A stretch of DNA of 25,978 bases, from positions 1 through 25,978 of the IMG/VR virus record IMGVR_UViG_3300046516_000848; one strand, 5' to 3'. This stretch comes from a virus. The notes under the pieces were generated by a model. The model ran no database searches. It had not been told where the DNA came from and saw nothing but the letters and a program-made list of their open reading frames with translations. Below, in pieces: positions 1,496-21,390 of this stretch. A program made the translations under genes and the position numbers. Position 1 is the stretch's first letter. The number at the start of each line of letters is the position of its first letter.

Positions 1496-2455
1496 ATGGC
1501 CATAGTACCAGGAACCGCCCTGACCTACACCGGACAGCCGGGACTCCAAGGTTTGCGCGAAGATTTGTCGAACATGATCTACATGATATCGCCGGAAACT
1601 ACACCTTTTCTCAGTAATATCGGCCGCGAGACGTGCGACGCGGTGTTGACCGAATGGCAGACCGACGCGCTCGCCGCCGCCGATGTCGGCAACGCCCAGT
1701 TCCAGGGCGATGATATCGCCACGTTTTCGGCAGCGTCAGTCACGGCGAGGCTCGGCAACCGCACCCAGATCATGCGCAAAACGGTGATCATCTCGGGTAC
1801 GGTCGACCGGGTTAATAAGGCCGGCCGCAACACCGAGCTGGCGATGCAGCTCACCAAACGCGGCAAGGAACTGAAGATCGACACCGAGTCGATCCTCCTC
1901 AATAACCAGGCGAAGGTCACCGGCGCCGTGACCACCGCACCGACCATGGCCGGCGTGCCCGCCTGGATCAAAACCAACACCAATCACGTTGGTACTAATC
2001 CGGTTGGCGATGGCAGCAATATCAGAGTGGATGGCGGCGCCCCCCGCGCCTTCACCGAGGTGATGTTGAAGGACGTTTTGAAACAAATATGGACGAACTC
2101 CAGCGAAGAACCGGATGTACTAATGTGCGGCGGTAGCAACAAATCTGTTGCTTCGTCGTTCACCGGCGGCGCGCAGAAGACGGTGGATGTCGCTACCAAG
2201 AAACTGACGGCAACCGTCGACATCTATGTCGGCGACTTCCACACGATCAACATCATCTCCAATCGCTGGCAGCGCCCGCGCGACGCTTTTATCTTGAACT
2301 GGAACTACTGGGCGGTCGCTTGGCTGCGGCCCACCAGCCAGGTGCCGCTCGCCAAAACCGGCGACGCCGAGAAGCGGATGCTGATCCAAGAATGCACGTT
2401 GATCAGCAAGAATGAGGCCGCATCGGGTGGCATCTACGACCTCACAACACCATGA
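1496..2455 (+). CDS. Major capsid protein, SU10-like (DUF5309 type)
   Basis: A 319-aa protein with the N-terminal signature of SU10-type major capsid proteins: an N-arm, then DLSNMIYMISPETTPFLSNI at about residues 23-42. This resembles the DLSDVIYNISPxxTPF pattern of that family. The middle contains the family's typical helix (about 100-140, basic and charged) and a later beta-rich section with an IYVGDFHTINI segment near 242-252. Length fits the family (roughly 310-350 aa). It forms the HK97-fold capsid shell. The start at 1496 has a GATGGAG ribosome binding site about 8-14 nt upstream. Position after the scaffold supports the call. The gene is followed after 79 bp by an HNH endonuclease, which separates it from the terminator at 3288. 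Confidence 0.9.
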   Translation: MAIVPGTALTYTGQPGLQGLREDLSNMIYMISPETTPFLSNIGRETCDAVLTEWQTDALAAADVGNAQFQGDDIATFSAASVTARLGNRTQIMRKTVIISGTVDRVNKAGRNTELAMQLTKRGKELKIDTESILLNNQAKVTGAVTTAPTMAGVPAWIKTNTNHVGTNPVGDGSNIRVDGGAPRAFTEVMLKDVLKQIWTNSSEEPDVLMCGGSNKSVASSFTGGAQKTVDVATKKLTATVDIYVGDFHTINIISNRWQRPRDAFILNWNYWAVAWLRPTSQVPLAKTGDAEKRMLIQECTLISKNEAASGGIYDLTTP

Positions 2456-2487
2456 CCTCTTGGTATTAACTATCGTCAGCCTGTATA

Positions 2488-2526
2488 CTCCCGTTATGGC
2501 GTCATTGCAAGACGCCATAACGGGAG
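2488..2526 (+). promoter_or_regulatory. Perfect 16-bp hairpin masking the HNH ribosome binding site
   Basis: CTCCCGTTATGGCGTC at 2488-2503 is exactly complementary to GACGCCATAACGGGAG at 2511-2526, with a 7-nt loop (ATTGCAA). The 3' arm ends in GGGAG, which is part of the only Shine-Dalgarno sequence (GGGAGGG, 2522-2528) in front of the HNH ATG at 2535. In an mRNA reading through from the capsid gene the site should therefore be paired and closed. There is no long T tract after it, so it is a poor intrinsic terminator. Confidence 0.8.
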
Positions 2527-2534
2527 GGTTTCTA

Positions 2535-3203
2535 ATGGCGGGTAAGCCGGTACGGCAACTGGTTGGAGAGCGGTTTGGGCTGTTGCTAGTCGTGGAGGCG
2601 GCGGGGTTCGCCAAGGGCCGCGCGCTGTGGCGATGCGCCTGCGATTGCGGGGCGATTGTCGTCAAGGTCGGCAATCTGCTGCAGCAGGGCAAAACGAAAA
2701 GCTGTGGATGCGCCAAGGCCGCTCTAGTGAGTGCGGGCAAGCGAACGCACGGCCAGGCTGGCGGCGAACGAACCGGGGCTTACCAGCGCTGGCTGGGCAT
2801 TAAGGCGCGGTGCGGCAATCCCAATAGTCCTGCATGGCATAACTACGGCGGGCGCGGGATCACGGTCTGCGATCGGTGGCGCGACAGCTTTGAGGCGTTT
2901 TACGCCGACGTGGGCGATCCGCCGGGGTCTGACCTGTCGCTTGATCGCATCGATAACGACGGCAACTACGAACCCGGCAATGTGCGTTGGGCAACCAAGT
3001 CGCAGCAGATCAAGAACAGCCGGTTTGATAAGGTGCAGGGCGTGCGTAACGGTCGGGCCAAGCTAACCGAGGACGATGTGAGATTTATCCGCGCTAGCAC
3101 GGCCAGCCGCACCATGCTCGCTGAGATGTTCGGGCTGGCCCCGACATACATCTCCACGCTTCGCGGGAGCAAGTACTACAAGCACTGGCGTTCTGTGAGC
3201 TGA
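2535..3203 (+). CDS. HNH homing-type endonuclease
   Basis: A 222-aa protein with the layout of free-standing phage HNH endonucleases. N-terminal Cys pattern C34, C36, C38 and then SCGC (56-59) suggests a small zinc-binding module. Next comes the HNH core: YGGRGITVCDRW at 104-115, then SLDRIDNDGNYEPGNVRWAT at 135-154, in which His is replaced by Asp as in many of this family. A C-terminal HTH-like DNA-binding segment follows (about 172-217, NGRAKLTEDDVRFIR...MLAEMFGLAPTYISTLRG). Such enzymes nick or cut DNA and spread by homing. It sits alone between the capsid gene and that operon's terminator, so it looks like an insertion. An in-frame ATG at 2496 lies inside the hairpin; I prefer 2535, which has the GGGAGGG site 6 nt upstream. 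Confidence 0.9.
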   Translation: MAGKPVRQLVGERFGLLLVVEAAGFAKGRALWRCACDCGAIVVKVGNLLQQGKTKSCGCAKAALVSAGKRTHGQAGGERTGAYQRWLGIKARCGNPNSPAWHNYGGRGITVCDRWRDSFEAFYADVGDPPGSDLSLDRIDNDGNYEPGNVRWATKSQQIKNSRFDKVQGVRNGRAKLTEDDVRFIRASTASRTMLAEMFGLAPTYISTLRGSKYYKHWRSVS

Positions 3204-3227
3204 CAACGCCTTGATCGTACAGGATAA

Positions 3228-3266
3228 ATAATTCGCGGATAATTCGCGGATAATTCGCCGCGAATT
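3228..3266 (+). repeat. Three tandem 11-bp repeats ending in a palindrome
   Basis: ATAATTCGCGG occurs at 3228-3238 and 3239-3249, and a third copy with one change (ATAATTCGCCG) lies at 3250-3260. The third copy runs into GCGAATT, so AATTCGC-C-GCGAATT (3252-3266) is a 7-bp inverted repeat. The unit is one helical turn long and is AT-richer than the surroundings. It lies between the HNH stop and the terminator. Function is unknown. Confidence 0.75.
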
Positions 3267-3287
3267 TCTAATCGTCGGAGTTCTTCG

Positions 3288-3319
3288 GGGCGGTCCATCG
3301 CGGGCCGCCCTTTTCTTTT
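3288..3319 (+). terminator. Intrinsic terminator after the capsid/HNH genes
   Basis: GGGCGGTCC (3288-3296) pairs with GGGCCGCCC (3302-3310), with one G-U pair and a 5-nt loop. TTTTCTTTT (3311-3319) follows at once. This is a typical Rho-independent terminator. A terminator right after the capsid gene is common, but here the HNH gene lies between them. Confidence 0.85.
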
Positions 3320-3329
3320 GGGACAAGCC

Positions 3330-3653
3330 ATGCCGATCCTGTTCGACACCGACCCCGAATACGGGGCCTACGAGACGTTCGACTACGATAACGATAATGG
3401 CCGCGTCACCATCCGCCGGATCTGCGACGTGCAGCCGATCATCGACCGCAACAAGGAACTGCAGAACCACACCGACTGCTGGAACGAGGCGAAAGACATG
3501 CGCCTGGCGGCCAGCATCCCCAACGAGGTGGCGCTGATGTGGCTCAACGATTACGGCGTTAACTGCTGGCGCAAGGAACACTGGCCGGCGGTGAAAAAAT
3601 TGCTCAACTCGAACGAGTGGAAATACCTTCGGACGAATACCTTTTACCTATGA
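3330..3653 (+). CDS. Small phage structural-region protein, unknown function
   Basis: A 107-aa protein just after the terminator. I do not recognise a catalytic motif. The N-terminal part is acidic and aromatic (FDTDPEYGAYETFDYDNDN, about residues 5-23), and the rest is mixed alpha/beta with several Trp and Asn residues. The stretch NEVALMWLNDYGVNCW lies near 66-81. Small conserved proteins of this kind sit between capsid and adaptor in SU10-like and related podoviruses and are often minor head components. ATG at 3330 is chosen over an in-frame TTG at 3318 inside the terminator T tract. Its stop overlaps the next gene as ATGA. Confidence 0.65.
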   Translation: MPILFDTDPEYGAYETFDYDNDNGRVTIRRICDVQPIIDRNKELQNHTDCWNEAKDMRLAASIPNEVALMWLNDYGVNCWRKEHWPAVKKLLNSNEWKYLRTNTFYL

Positions 3654-3865
3654 AGCCCAACACCAACAAACACCGCCTCTACAACGCGCTGAAGCGGCTG
3701 GTGACCGAGGCCCATGTCTTAGCCGGAATAGAGCAGGACGTGCTGCCCGAGTCGCACGTCCCAGACGACGCCGTCCTCTGCGTGATCCCGCTATCGGCGC
3801 TGGAGCAGGCCCGCGAGGCGCTCGGCGCCGCTCGCCTCAACCGACGAGATCCCGATGCCGCTTGA
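3650..3865 (+). CDS. 71-aa hypothetical phage protein
   Basis: The start ATG overlaps the stop of the preceding gene (ATGA at 3650-3653), so translation is probably coupled. The protein is mainly helical, with a basic N-terminus (MKPNTNKHRLYNALKRL) and a central beta-like segment (DDAVLCVIPLSAL). No family is recognised. An in-frame ATG at 3617 lies inside the preceding gene and has no ribosome binding site. The C-terminus overlaps the adaptor start by 11 bp. A small head-completion or chaperone-like protein is possible, but that is only inference from position. Confidence 0.6.
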   Translation: MKPNTNKHRLYNALKRLVTEAHVLAGIEQDVLPESHVPDDAVLCVIPLSALEQAREALGAARLNRRDPDAA

Positions 3866-4538
3866 CACATATGCCAATTTGCAGACCGCGGTGCTGGAGT
3901 GGCTGGGCCGCCCGGCCGACCGGCTCTTGGTCGATCACGTCCCGGACATGGTGACGCTGTTCGAGGCCGAAGCCCGCCCGCGGCTGCGCACGATCGGCGG
4001 CGAGGGGATGGAGATCCTCTACACCTCGCCCGGCTACCCGGACCTCGCGATGCCGGCGGACTTCGCCGAATTGCGCCACGCGATGCTGGTGGATCTCGCG
4101 GTGCCGCTCGATTTCATGGCCCCCGCGGAGGCGGCGCGCTACGTTTGCGTCGCCGGCATCCCGCAGTTTTACACGATCTACGGCAGCACCGACGATGCGG
4201 TGCCCTGCTCGCCAGGCGGCGGCAACATCCAGATGCGCCTCACCCCACCACCCGACAGCAGCTACACCGTCAGCGTCACTTACCTGCGTGGCTTGCCGGC
4301 GCTCTCGGCGGACAACCCGACCAACTGGCTGCTGAAGGCCTCGCCCACGGCGTATCTGTTCGGGACCTTGCTGGAGGCGGCAGCCTTTATCGGCCACGAC
4401 GAGCGCGTGCCGCTGTGGGCGCAGCGCCGCGAAGCTGCATTCGCCGCCCTGGAGCGCGCCGACATCAAAGCGCGCTGGGGCGGGCCATTGCAGGTGCGGC
4501 CGGACATGGGGATGCGCGTGCGCGGCGGGACGCTGTAG
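3855..4538 (+). CDS. Head-tail adaptor protein, SU10 adaptor-like
   Basis: A 227-aa protein resembling the helical adaptor family of short-tailed phages. It opens with TYANLQTAVLEWLGRPADRLLVDHVPDMVTLFEAEARPRL in segments (about residues 5-44), the usual first helices with an acidic 'FEAEA-R-L' turn. A beta section of the type 'LPADFAELRHAML' lies near 70-82. A central extension contains a YLRGLPALS turn, and the C-terminal helix (about 180-210) has AQRREAAFAALERADIKAR. Adaptors form the ring joining portal to nozzle. Position between head genes and the nozzle-like gene agrees. It overlaps the previous gene by 11 bp and is followed immediately by a GTG start at 4539. Confidence 0.75.
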   Translation: MPLDTYANLQTAVLEWLGRPADRLLVDHVPDMVTLFEAEARPRLRTIGGEGMEILYTSPGYPDLAMPADFAELRHAMLVDLAVPLDFMAPAEAARYVCVAGIPQFYTIYGSTDDAVPCSPGGGNIQMRLTPPPDSSYTVSVTYLRGLPALSADNPTNWLLKASPTAYLFGTLLEAAAFIGHDERVPLWAQRREAAFAALERADIKARWGGPLQVRPDMGMRVRGGTL

Positions 4539-19265: not shown

Positions 19266-19633
19266 CGCCGCGTTCCGCAATTAAAGCCCTCGATGCAGTC
19301 CCAGCCGGGCGCGAACGCATTGCCGCGCTCGCAGCGCATGCCGGCCGGCGGGTCGTCGGCCAGCCAGCGGCCGGCGGCGATGGCATCGACCGCGGCGCGG
19401 CAGGTTTCGGCAGAGGTGGCGGGGATGCGCTCCTGGCGCTCGGCACCCCACGACAGCAGCAGGATGTGCGCGTCGAAGGCGAGGGCGGCGAGCAGGAATA
19501 GGGTGGGACAGTGCCCCGAAAAGACCCGCAGTTTCCCTAGAGGCGCATTAGCTGGGTGGGACTGCGCAGGGCGCTGATTTGCCTTGAAAATTGCAGTTCT
19601 GCCGGGGTCGCCACCCTCTTGCCGGTCTACCAT
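19262..19633 (-). CDS. Small secreted/membrane-like protein with an atypical N-terminus
   Basis: A 123-aa reading starting at ATG 19633, four nt after the GIY-YIG stop. Residues 1-45 look unlike the rest (GGDPGRTAIFKANQRPAQSH and so on), whereas residues 46-123 begin with a signal-like hydrophobic segment (LFLLAALAFDAHILLLSW), then a soluble part with RIPATSAETCRAAVDAIAAG and a Cys-containing end (RCERGNAF, WDCIEGFNCGTRR). I suspect that the native start once lay near residue 45, and that the upstream DNA is unrelated. Two GGGTGGGAC repeats lie inside this unusual part. No alternative ATG/GTG/TTG start was found in frame between. Confidence 0.45.
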   Translation of the reverse strand: MVDRQEGGDPGRTAIFKANQRPAQSHPANAPLGKLRVFSGHCPTLFLLAALAFDAHILLLSWGAERQERIPATSAETCRAAVDAIAAGRWLADDPPAGMRCERGNAFAPGWDCIEGFNCGTRR

Positions 19634-19686
19634 GATTTCAATGCTTTAACGTAGGGTGGGACTCGGTTTCGACGATGGGTGGGACT
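19501..19686. repeat. Four copies of GGGTGGGAC(T/A), possible attP arm sites
   Basis: GGGTGGGACA lies at 19501-19510 and GGGTGGGACT at 19554-19563, 19654-19663 and 19677-19686. All are in the same orientation, with start-to-start steps of 53, 100 and 23 bp. They lie just downstream of the integrase-GIY-YIG pair, where arm-type integrase sites would be expected. The two right copies code for the GIY-YIG C-terminus, so they are not non-coding. No host tRNA-like core site is visible nearby. Confidence 0.6.
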
Positions 19687-20129
19687 CTGAATGTTCCAAG
19701 AGTGTTCTGATCCGGCCTGATTGCCGCGATCAGGGTACGCTCTAAAACGAACCGATCCCTCCCTGGCGCATGGATGTAATAGGCCCGATCGAACTGTCGT
19801 CCGTTGGTTCGATGCGCCGTGACGCGAGTGGCCATGTCTTCGCTTGTCCCGATGTAGACCACGCGGTTGCCGAGGAGCAGCAGATAGACGCCGGCCGCTG
19901 ATTTGCGCGCCCGGCGTCTCTCAATCGCAATCTTGGTTTTCTCCTTGGCGCCGAATGGCGGCAAGGCTACGGGGCTGTCCGAGGCGTCGCCCAACCGCGC
20001 AAACGCGGCAAGATAAGCGCGCTGGAAATCCGCCGTTCCCGGCGCCGGCAGGCGAATGCGTGTTCCGCGTCGCCGGAAATAATGCACAACCTTGCCGTGC
20101 CGGGTTTTGATGCTTTGAACGTACTTCAC
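19638..20129 (-). CDS. GIY-YIG endonuclease-like protein with an integrase N-terminal module
   Basis: A 163-aa protein beginning at GTG 20129, which overlaps the integrase stop (GTGA). Residues 3-42 closely follow the N-terminus of the adjacent integrase: RHGKV at 10-14, HYFRRRG at 16-22, RIRLP at 24-28, and F35...AY38-39...AA41-42. Residues 79-142 are a complete GIY-YIG core: GVY at 80-82, YIG at 92-94, R102, E130 in LERTLIAAIRP and N142. All usual catalytic positions are present. The natural reading is a nuclease aimed at integrase arm-type DNA sites. It could also be a homing-like gene that borrowed a targeting module. The last 20 residues include two copies of the 10-bp repeat at the DNA level. 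Confidence 0.85.
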   Translation of the reverse strand: MKYVQSIKTRHGKVVHYFRRRGTRIRLPAPGTADFQRAYLAAFARLGDASDSPVALPPFGAKEKTKIAIERRRARKSAAGVYLLLLGNRVVYIGTSEDMATRVTAHRTNGRQFDRAYYIHAPGRDRFVLERTLIAAIRPDQNTLGTFRVPPIVETESHPTLKH

Positions 20130-21202
20130 GCCTCGTCCTTCCCGACCACCCGCAACGGCGTTTTTACCGGCAGGTCGATCTGCGCATAGGCCGCCGCGGC
20201 GAGTTGCTCCTGCGCCACGGCGCGGGTGTAGACGCGGATCAGAGCGAGGCTGTCGTGCCCGGTGATGGCGGCGATCTGGTGCTCCGAGCAGCCCGCTTCG
20301 GCGAGGCGGCGGCACTGCGCCTTGCGCAAGCCGTGCGCGCTGCAATGCGGTAGCCCCGCCTCGTTGCAGCACTCGCGGAACCAGTTGCCGAAACCGGCCG
20401 GGCTGAACGGCGCCCCGGCTCCCGTGACCAGATAGCTCAGATGCCCGGTCTGGGTCGCCGCCAGGACCGCCGCCAGTTCCGAGTGCAATGGGATCAGCAG
20501 CGTCTTGGCGGTGGTGCGCTCGGTCTTCTGCGGCCGCAGCGTGATGGTGCGCCCGGTGACGTGCTGCGGGCCGAGGCGCACGATGTCGCTGCGACGCTGC
20601 GCGGTATAGAGCAAGAGCGCCAGCGCCAAGCGCGCCTTCGAGCCGACCGGATGGTGCGCCTCGTATTGCGCGATCTCGCCCTCGGTCCAGCTATGAAACC
20701 CGGTCGAGGTCTTCGCCTTGGCGCGCTTGATACTGTCGGTCGGGTCTTCCGCCAGGAGCTCGACCTCGACGGCGAACGCCATCAGACCGCGCAGGGTCTT
20801 CAGCCAGTTATGCGCGGCATAAGGCTTCATCTTGCCGAGCATTACCGCGATATGCTTGCGCTCGAGGCCGGCCAGGGGCTTGTCGCCGTGCTCGCTGCGC
20901 AACCGCTCGAGGATCGCCCGGCGCATCGCCTGGGTCGACGGCGCCAGCCCGTGCACAAAGCTGTTGTGCTGGTAATAGGCGGCGATGGCGCCCGCCACGG
21001 TGCCGTCGGGCGAGCGTTTCCGGCCGAGTTTCGGCGGCGCAATCACATGCGCCGCCTTGGCCGCGTGATAGGCTTCGAGGAAGGCCGGAGAACCGGGGTC
21101 ATCGGGGAGTCGGATCTTCGCCCGGCCGGGCCGGCGGTAATAGTAGCGCACCCGGCCGTGCCGGCTCTTGTCGGCAACGACGTGCGGGAATTTAAGGTTC
21201 AT
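20126..21202 (-). CDS. int: Tyrosine integrase
   Basis: A 358-aa tyrosine recombinase with all active-site residues: R203 (AQRRSD), K226 (LRPQKTER), H290 and R293 (SAHGLRK), H316 (ITGHDSL) and Y325 (RVYTRA). Residues 1-50 form an N-terminal arm-type module (RHGRV, YYYRR, IRLP), and 65-165 are the core-binding helices. Length is typical. It catalyses site-specific integration and excision. ATG at 21202 overlaps the stop of the small upstream gene (ATGA), and its own stop overlaps the GIY-YIG start. It is driven by the promoter at 21397-21426. No separate excisionase is recognised, though the 63-aa upstream protein is a candidate. Confidence 0.95.
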   Translation of the reverse strand: MNLKFPHVVADKSRHGRVRYYYRRPGRAKIRLPDDPGSPAFLEAYHAAKAAHVIAPPKLGRKRSPDGTVAGAIAAYYQHNSFVHGLAPSTQAMRRAILERLRSEHGDKPLAGLERKHIAVMLGKMKPYAAHNWLKTLRGLMAFAVEVELLAEDPTDSIKRAKAKTSTGFHSWTEGEIAQYEAHHPVGSKARLALALLLYTAQRRSDIVRLGPQHVTGRTITLRPQKTERTTAKTLLIPLHSELAAVLAATQTGHLSYLVTGAGAPFSPAGFGNWFRECCNEAGLPHCSAHGLRKAQCRRLAEAGCSEHQIAAITGHDSLALIRVYTRAVAQEQLAAAAYAQIDLPVKTPLRVVGKDEA

Positions 21203-21390
21203 CGGGTCAGGACTTCATCCCAAGGGTTGGCAGGCGTGGCCGGCGGCGGGTCGGCTGGTGCGCCGATCTCGACTTCGATGTCGCCGTCGTGCGAAATTTT
21301 GACCCGCCGCACCGGATGCCCGGCGGCCTCGACCGCCTTGACCGCGGCGGTGACATCGCGTTGGCGGAATTTTGAGGGGGCGCGCGACAT
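21199..21390 (-). CDS. 63-aa pre-integrase protein, possible recombination-direction factor
   Basis: First gene of the leftward operon. ATG at 21390 lies only 6 nt after the -10 hexamer, and there is no ribosome binding site, so its mRNA is probably leaderless. Residues 8-25 (FRQRDVTAAVKAVEAAGH) form a helix, followed by a strand pair with VRRVKISHDGDIEVEIG (27-43), then a Pro-rich tail. Small proteins of this shape commonly precede integrases in rhizobial prophages. Its role is not certain; it might be an excisionase-like factor, but it has no clear winged helix. Stop overlaps the integrase start. Confidence 0.65.
   Translation of the reverse strand: MSRAPSKFRQRDVTAAVKAVEAAGHPVRRVKISHDGDIEVEIGAPADPPPATPANPWDEVLTR

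Follow-up and report, generated by a model that had tools for sequence, protein, structure and literature searches.

Nucleases of the GIY-YIG, HNH and T5orf172 types are classic homing nucleases of phages. Phage homing endonucleases such as I-TevI are small and modular, with a separate DNA-binding part, a flexible linker and a gene located beside the presumed target. In lambda, the arm-binding domain (PF09003) belongs to the recombinase. The origin-directed nuclease Odn (Gp88) of ICP1 consists of RepA_N and T5orf172 and acts on the origin of a satellite (PMC8263062), and related coliphage nucleases mirror the RepA_N variants of their satellites (PMC10448857). In the open-licence literature, no description was found of a version of such nucleases with an integrase module. 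Here, a nuclease gene of this kind and its relatives are described and discussed.

The window, the whole stretch of DNA that was analysed, is an IMG/VR virus record of 25,978 bases that includes no host genome, and in it a small GIY-YIG protein with an integrase-type N-terminus is encoded next to a tyrosine integrase. By analogy, Odn appears to be the nearest precedent, and the present proteins look to be built on the same principle: a nuclease of the GIY-YIG superfamily with an N-terminal DNA-binding domain that is shared with a DNA-binding protein of the element it is aimed at and has variants mirroring those of that protein. However, the RepA_N domain of Odn is aimed at the origin of a rival satellite, whereas the module in the window is that of an integrase, the matching integrase is its own neighbour and the system is known from sequence. 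With an integrase-type module and a GIY-YIG core instead of RepA_N and T5orf172, the window protein is not a member of the Odn type. It resembles the phage homing endonucleases in its small size, modular build, linker and gene position, but differs from them in the integrase-type module, and no homing event, intron or empty allele (a near-identical locus without the nuclease gene) was found among the fetched loci. The arm-binding domain of lambda Int is present on the nucleases of three related loci (L017, L025 and L106) and the model of the window integrase matches lambda Int, whereas for the RHGK-type module of the window no Pfam family was matched at the thresholds applied.

By its longest open frames, the window consists of a plus-strand block followed by a minus-strand block that contains the integrase and nuclease genes. 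The integrase gene (20126..21202, minus strand) encodes 358 amino acids and the nuclease gene (19638..20129, minus strand) encodes 163 amino acids from a GTG start. The integrase stop and this GTG overlap in the sequence GTGA (20126-20129), and GGAAGGACGAGG is found directly upstream of the GTG. No tRNA genes were found in the window. A small protein is encoded directly upstream of the RHGK-type integrase in the window (21199-21390, minus strand), in locus L001 (2812-2994, plus strand) and in locus L009, where the copy forms the C-terminal part of frame 2337-2888 (plus strand). The three share FRQRDVT, FRQRDID or FKEADVT, then DG, then NPWD or NEWD. The window copy has no Pfam or PHROG match, and this protein is possibly an integrase partner.

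The integrase matches Pfam Phage_integrase (E 1e-14), has the conserved residues R203, K226, H290, R293 and H316, and its model has full-length lambda Int as its best solved match (1z1b, E 5e-13). Its RHGK-type N-terminal module (residues 8-51) is predicted to form strands at 8-12, 18-22 and 30-32 and a helix at 39-51. The corresponding module of the nuclease (19989..20129, minus strand; residues 1-47) is modelled by AlphaFold with strands at 4-8, 14-20 and 23-27 and a helix at 33-47, with pLDDT mostly 93-97, so that the order of three strands and a helix, by which the models were compared, is common to both. When the record was searched with the nuclease, its residues 4-44 were found to be 54% identical to the N-terminus of the integrase over 41 amino acids (E 4.1e-6), with shuffled-sequence z values of 10 for its own integrase and 18.7 for that of L001. 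By sequence likeness and predicted element order, the module is therefore probably of the integrase arm-binding type. A recent duplication from the neighbouring integrase is unsupported, as identity at the DNA level is patchy and short; in the window, the longest exact match is 10 nt.

The linker (19893..19988, minus strand; residues 48-79) is mostly of low confidence in the AlphaFold model, with a helix at 66-74, and joins the module to the GIY-YIG catalytic core (19701..19892, minus strand; residues 80-143). In this two-domain model, a catalytic domain is combined with a separate DNA-binding domain, a trait that the protein would share with homing endonucleases. The residues G80, Y82, Y92, G94, R102, H106, E130 and N142 are present in the core and conserved across the family. 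The Pfam GIY-YIG match is below threshold (E 0.13), and sequence searches of solved structures gave nothing significant; the best solved matches of the model are UvrC GIY-YIG domains (1yd6, E 1.2e-4). The motif with the catalytic R, E and N and the predicted fold point to membership of the GIY-YIG superfamily, with putative cleavage activity. In addition, none of the module-fused GIY-YIG members examined has lost a catalytic residue, which speaks for a working nuclease and against a binding-only regulator. The original prediction had named the GTGA overlap, the integrase-like N-terminus and all of these core residues except H106, and each of them was borne out. It had also held that unrelated N-terminal folds would speak against it; such folds did not occur.

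The arrangement is not a one-off fusion. In locus L001, an integrase and a nuclease gene overlap as in the window, and the nuclease is 58% identical. More cases were found in scans with the GIY-YIG family, which gave 249 sequence sets (248 loci and the window) with 128 distinct members. Loci were selected without regard to whether nuclease and neighbouring integrase agreed. In thirteen of the 27 members with a flanking integrase and a usable N-terminus (window included), the N-terminus of the nuclease matches that of its own integrase with a z of at least 8.6. Overall, the nuclease agrees with its neighbour in 13 of 14 integrase-module cases. Among the 82 members without an integrase in the flank, a single integrase-like N-terminus was observed, and it is cut by the contig end. 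Integrase-type modules are thus concentrated beside integrases (Fisher p 1e-8), although these fractions are no estimate for nature since the scans favour relatives of the query. Many other N-termini are carried by the GIY-YIG family. Compared with all flanking ORFs, the N-termini gave 14 matches above z 6, of which 11 were integrases; the other three were one in L158 and two weaker ones in L051, where the N-terminus of the GIY-YIG protein (3737-4264) is weakly like two small ORFs (2756-3115 and 3243-3524; z 8.4 and 7.2).

The 13 matched members form six mutually unlike module classes: the RHGK class (window, L001, L018, L007 and L020), the lambda-type class (L017 and L025, with PF09003 on both nuclease and integrase), the MASI class (L024, L027 and L049, with a divergent integrase) and three single-locus classes (L028, L021 and L015). 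The order of the genes varies, with the nuclease downstream, upstream or divergent, while the linkage to the integrase is constant, and translational overlap occurs in several pairs. Two further RHGK pairs, L009 and L010, came from a scan that also used the module pattern, and were added together with L106 to a score matrix of 16 pairs. The scores form a block-diagonal pattern, and the true total was not attained in any of 200,000 random re-pairings, which, together with the E value and shuffle scores of the window pair, rejects a chance likeness of the N-termini. Computationally, fusion, module match, intact active-site residues and adjacency are therefore observed as a pairing repeated across classes. 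The occurrence of six unlike classes, each beside an integrase of the same class, strongly supports that the module is of the integrase arm-binding type.

The agreement also seems to go further than common descent. Within the RHGK class, after removal of row and column effects, the true pairing was the best of 5040 (p 2e-4), and a Mantel test gave a weaker result (r 0.56, p 0.05). Joint descent from a single ancestral duplication would not alone put each nuclease nearest its own integrase, so this result speaks for a shared target beyond shared ancestry. The same is suggested by L021, of which the GIY-YIG domain groups with that of L020 inside the RHGK set (SH-aLRT 82; the tree has few columns and leaves many forks unresolved), while its N-terminus belongs to a non-RHGK class and matches its own integrase. 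By eye, the L021 protein (3575-4294) has a second integrase-N-terminal-like segment at about residues 68-125, between the module and the GIY-YIG core.

Similar modules have also been observed on other nuclease types. In L010, a single locus, the nuclease domain that carries an RHGK module is a relative of phage HNH and endonuclease VII proteins, and its gene overlaps the integrase gene. In L009, also a single locus, the module is found on a MUG113/T5orf172 domain beside the integrase, and the nuclease gene ends 64 bases before a tRNA-Arg. The clearest Pfam case of a lambda Int arm domain with GIY-YIG is L106 (2386-4498), where PF09003 (E 1.4e-9) is fused to GIY-YIG (E 8e-7). The integrase next to it, which is divergent, has an arm domain of a different family, PF13356, so that the modules do not match; this nuclease may have a rival as its target, or the original integrase may have been exchanged for another. 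In L158, the GIY-YIG nuclease beside the integrase carries an excisionase-type HTH (HTH_17, E 6.1e-7). This HTH matches an excisionase-like ORF just upstream, which overlaps the listed start of the integrase (z 11.5; ORFs 2580-2915, 2774-3763 and 3782-4228), indicating that the borrowed module may also be that of an excisionase.

The original prediction had called for a search for this N-terminal segment with GIY-YIG beside integrases, which gave further examples and no homologue pattern pointing to a chance likeness. Its proposal of an arm-type module that targets the nuclease to where the integrase binds is strongly favoured, by comparison, by the six classes, the PF09003 cases and the folds, while the mismatch in L106 stands against it. 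Two named phages have related arrangements. In the isolated Sinorhizobium phage NV1.1.1 (L004, 2523-4408), integrase and GIY-YIG genes overlap and the N-terminus of the nuclease is weakly HTH_17-like and unmatched to its integrase. In Pseudanabaena phage Pam5 (L005, 2163-4047), a module-less gene annotated as a GIY-YIG nuclease is located one gene upstream of an RHGK-type integrase. Borrowing of a neighbour's module was rejected for phages BL4 and Clover, where the N-terminus is unrelated to the adjacent gene. No fusions of module and GIY-YIG were found in 385 genomes from the class of the Roseomonas record, and no full-length HNH or T5orf172 versions were found in 372 genomes, in a search without a positive control.

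Candidate arm-type sites are present at the end of the nuclease gene. Exact GGGTGGGAC occurs in four plus-strand copies within 19500-19690 (19501..19509, 19554..19562, 19654..19662 and 19677..19685, the last two within the nuclease gene at its 3' end), in the int-distal region of the window and with no further copy in the 26 kb, and such a four-copy repeat was reached by 0 of 60 shuffles of the region. Among the other loci, clear exact repeats of this kind were found only in L020, with four TGTCTAAA copies around the end of the integrase gene. As the remaining loci have no clear repeat, it is mainly the window that supports the arm-site assignment. No attB was found through a guessed tRNA-like core, TTCTGCCGGGGTCGCCACC, which gave hits in 0 of 372 genomes, and the region matches neither tRNAs nor Rfam families.

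We put the chances at about even that the nuclease is an att-directed, homing-type GIY-YIG enzyme that reads the arm-type sites of its own integrase. Its module would guide the enzyme to the arm-type sites that surround the attP core, for which the four GGGTGGGAC copies are candidates, and the GIY-YIG domain would nick or cut there on its flexible linker. The likeliest pay-off would be homing-style competition, in which the int-attP region of co-infecting relatives with the same arm sites is cut and repair from the genome of the cutter would spread the nuclease together with its integrase and att site. Binding at arm sites, cleavage, escape of the own site and a homing or competition outcome are what we infer here. 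The int linkage and the shared module would also be explained if the nuclease protected a lysogen against superinfecting phages that share its arm sites, by cutting their attP, while the attP of the resident is spared because integration has split it into attL and attR. A weak likeness to GIY-YIG proteins of the defence library, mostly in the catalytic core, fits this reading. However, the gene overlap in the window suggests expression together with the integrase and not from a lysogen-only promoter, and the arm sites are still present on attL and attR after integration, so that sparing needs an extra rule; we consider such a defensive role rather unlikely. Membership of a known defence system was rejected, as similarity is limited to the catalytic core.

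The translational overlap in several pairs, and the excisionase-type HTH that replaces the module in L158, would also be expected of an accessory factor that competes with the integrase for arm sites and sets the direction or timing of recombination, with the nuclease domain being secondary. This is distinctly unlikely in our judgement: the conserved catalytic residues of the module-fused members, the presence of the RHGK module on three different nuclease types and the lack of such a partner for most related integrases here all weigh against it. Domains such as AP2 serve homing endonucleases as modular DNA-binding parts (PMC10448857), and given the variety of N-termini in the GIY-YIG family, the module could also be a general, interchangeable reader without att targeting, with the likeness to the neighbour resulting from local gene shuffling. 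But in six classes the module is of the type found on the neighbouring integrase, and as the DNA shows no sign of a recent copy, the match appears to have been maintained. In addition, searches of 385 and 76 genomes, two sets that partly overlap, placed the RHGK-module matches in integrase-length frames, except for one 53-aa fragment, and a general reader is regarded as very unlikely.

If the preferred reading of an att-directed nuclease is extended to the relatives, temperate phages would have repeatedly built nucleases that read the sites of their own integrase, drawing on three types of nuclease and no fewer than six classes of integrase module, and forming an undescribed layer of competition or control; we hold this tentatively, at a little below even chances. 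Should the arm sites of the integrase also be the destination of the nuclease, attachment sites would be a target in phage conflict, as origins are for Odn, and this would provide one explanation for the genetic exchange around int-att. With the pairing rule, by which a nuclease has a module like that of the integrase beside it, the DNA target of an uncharacterised nuclease could also be predicted from its neighbour.
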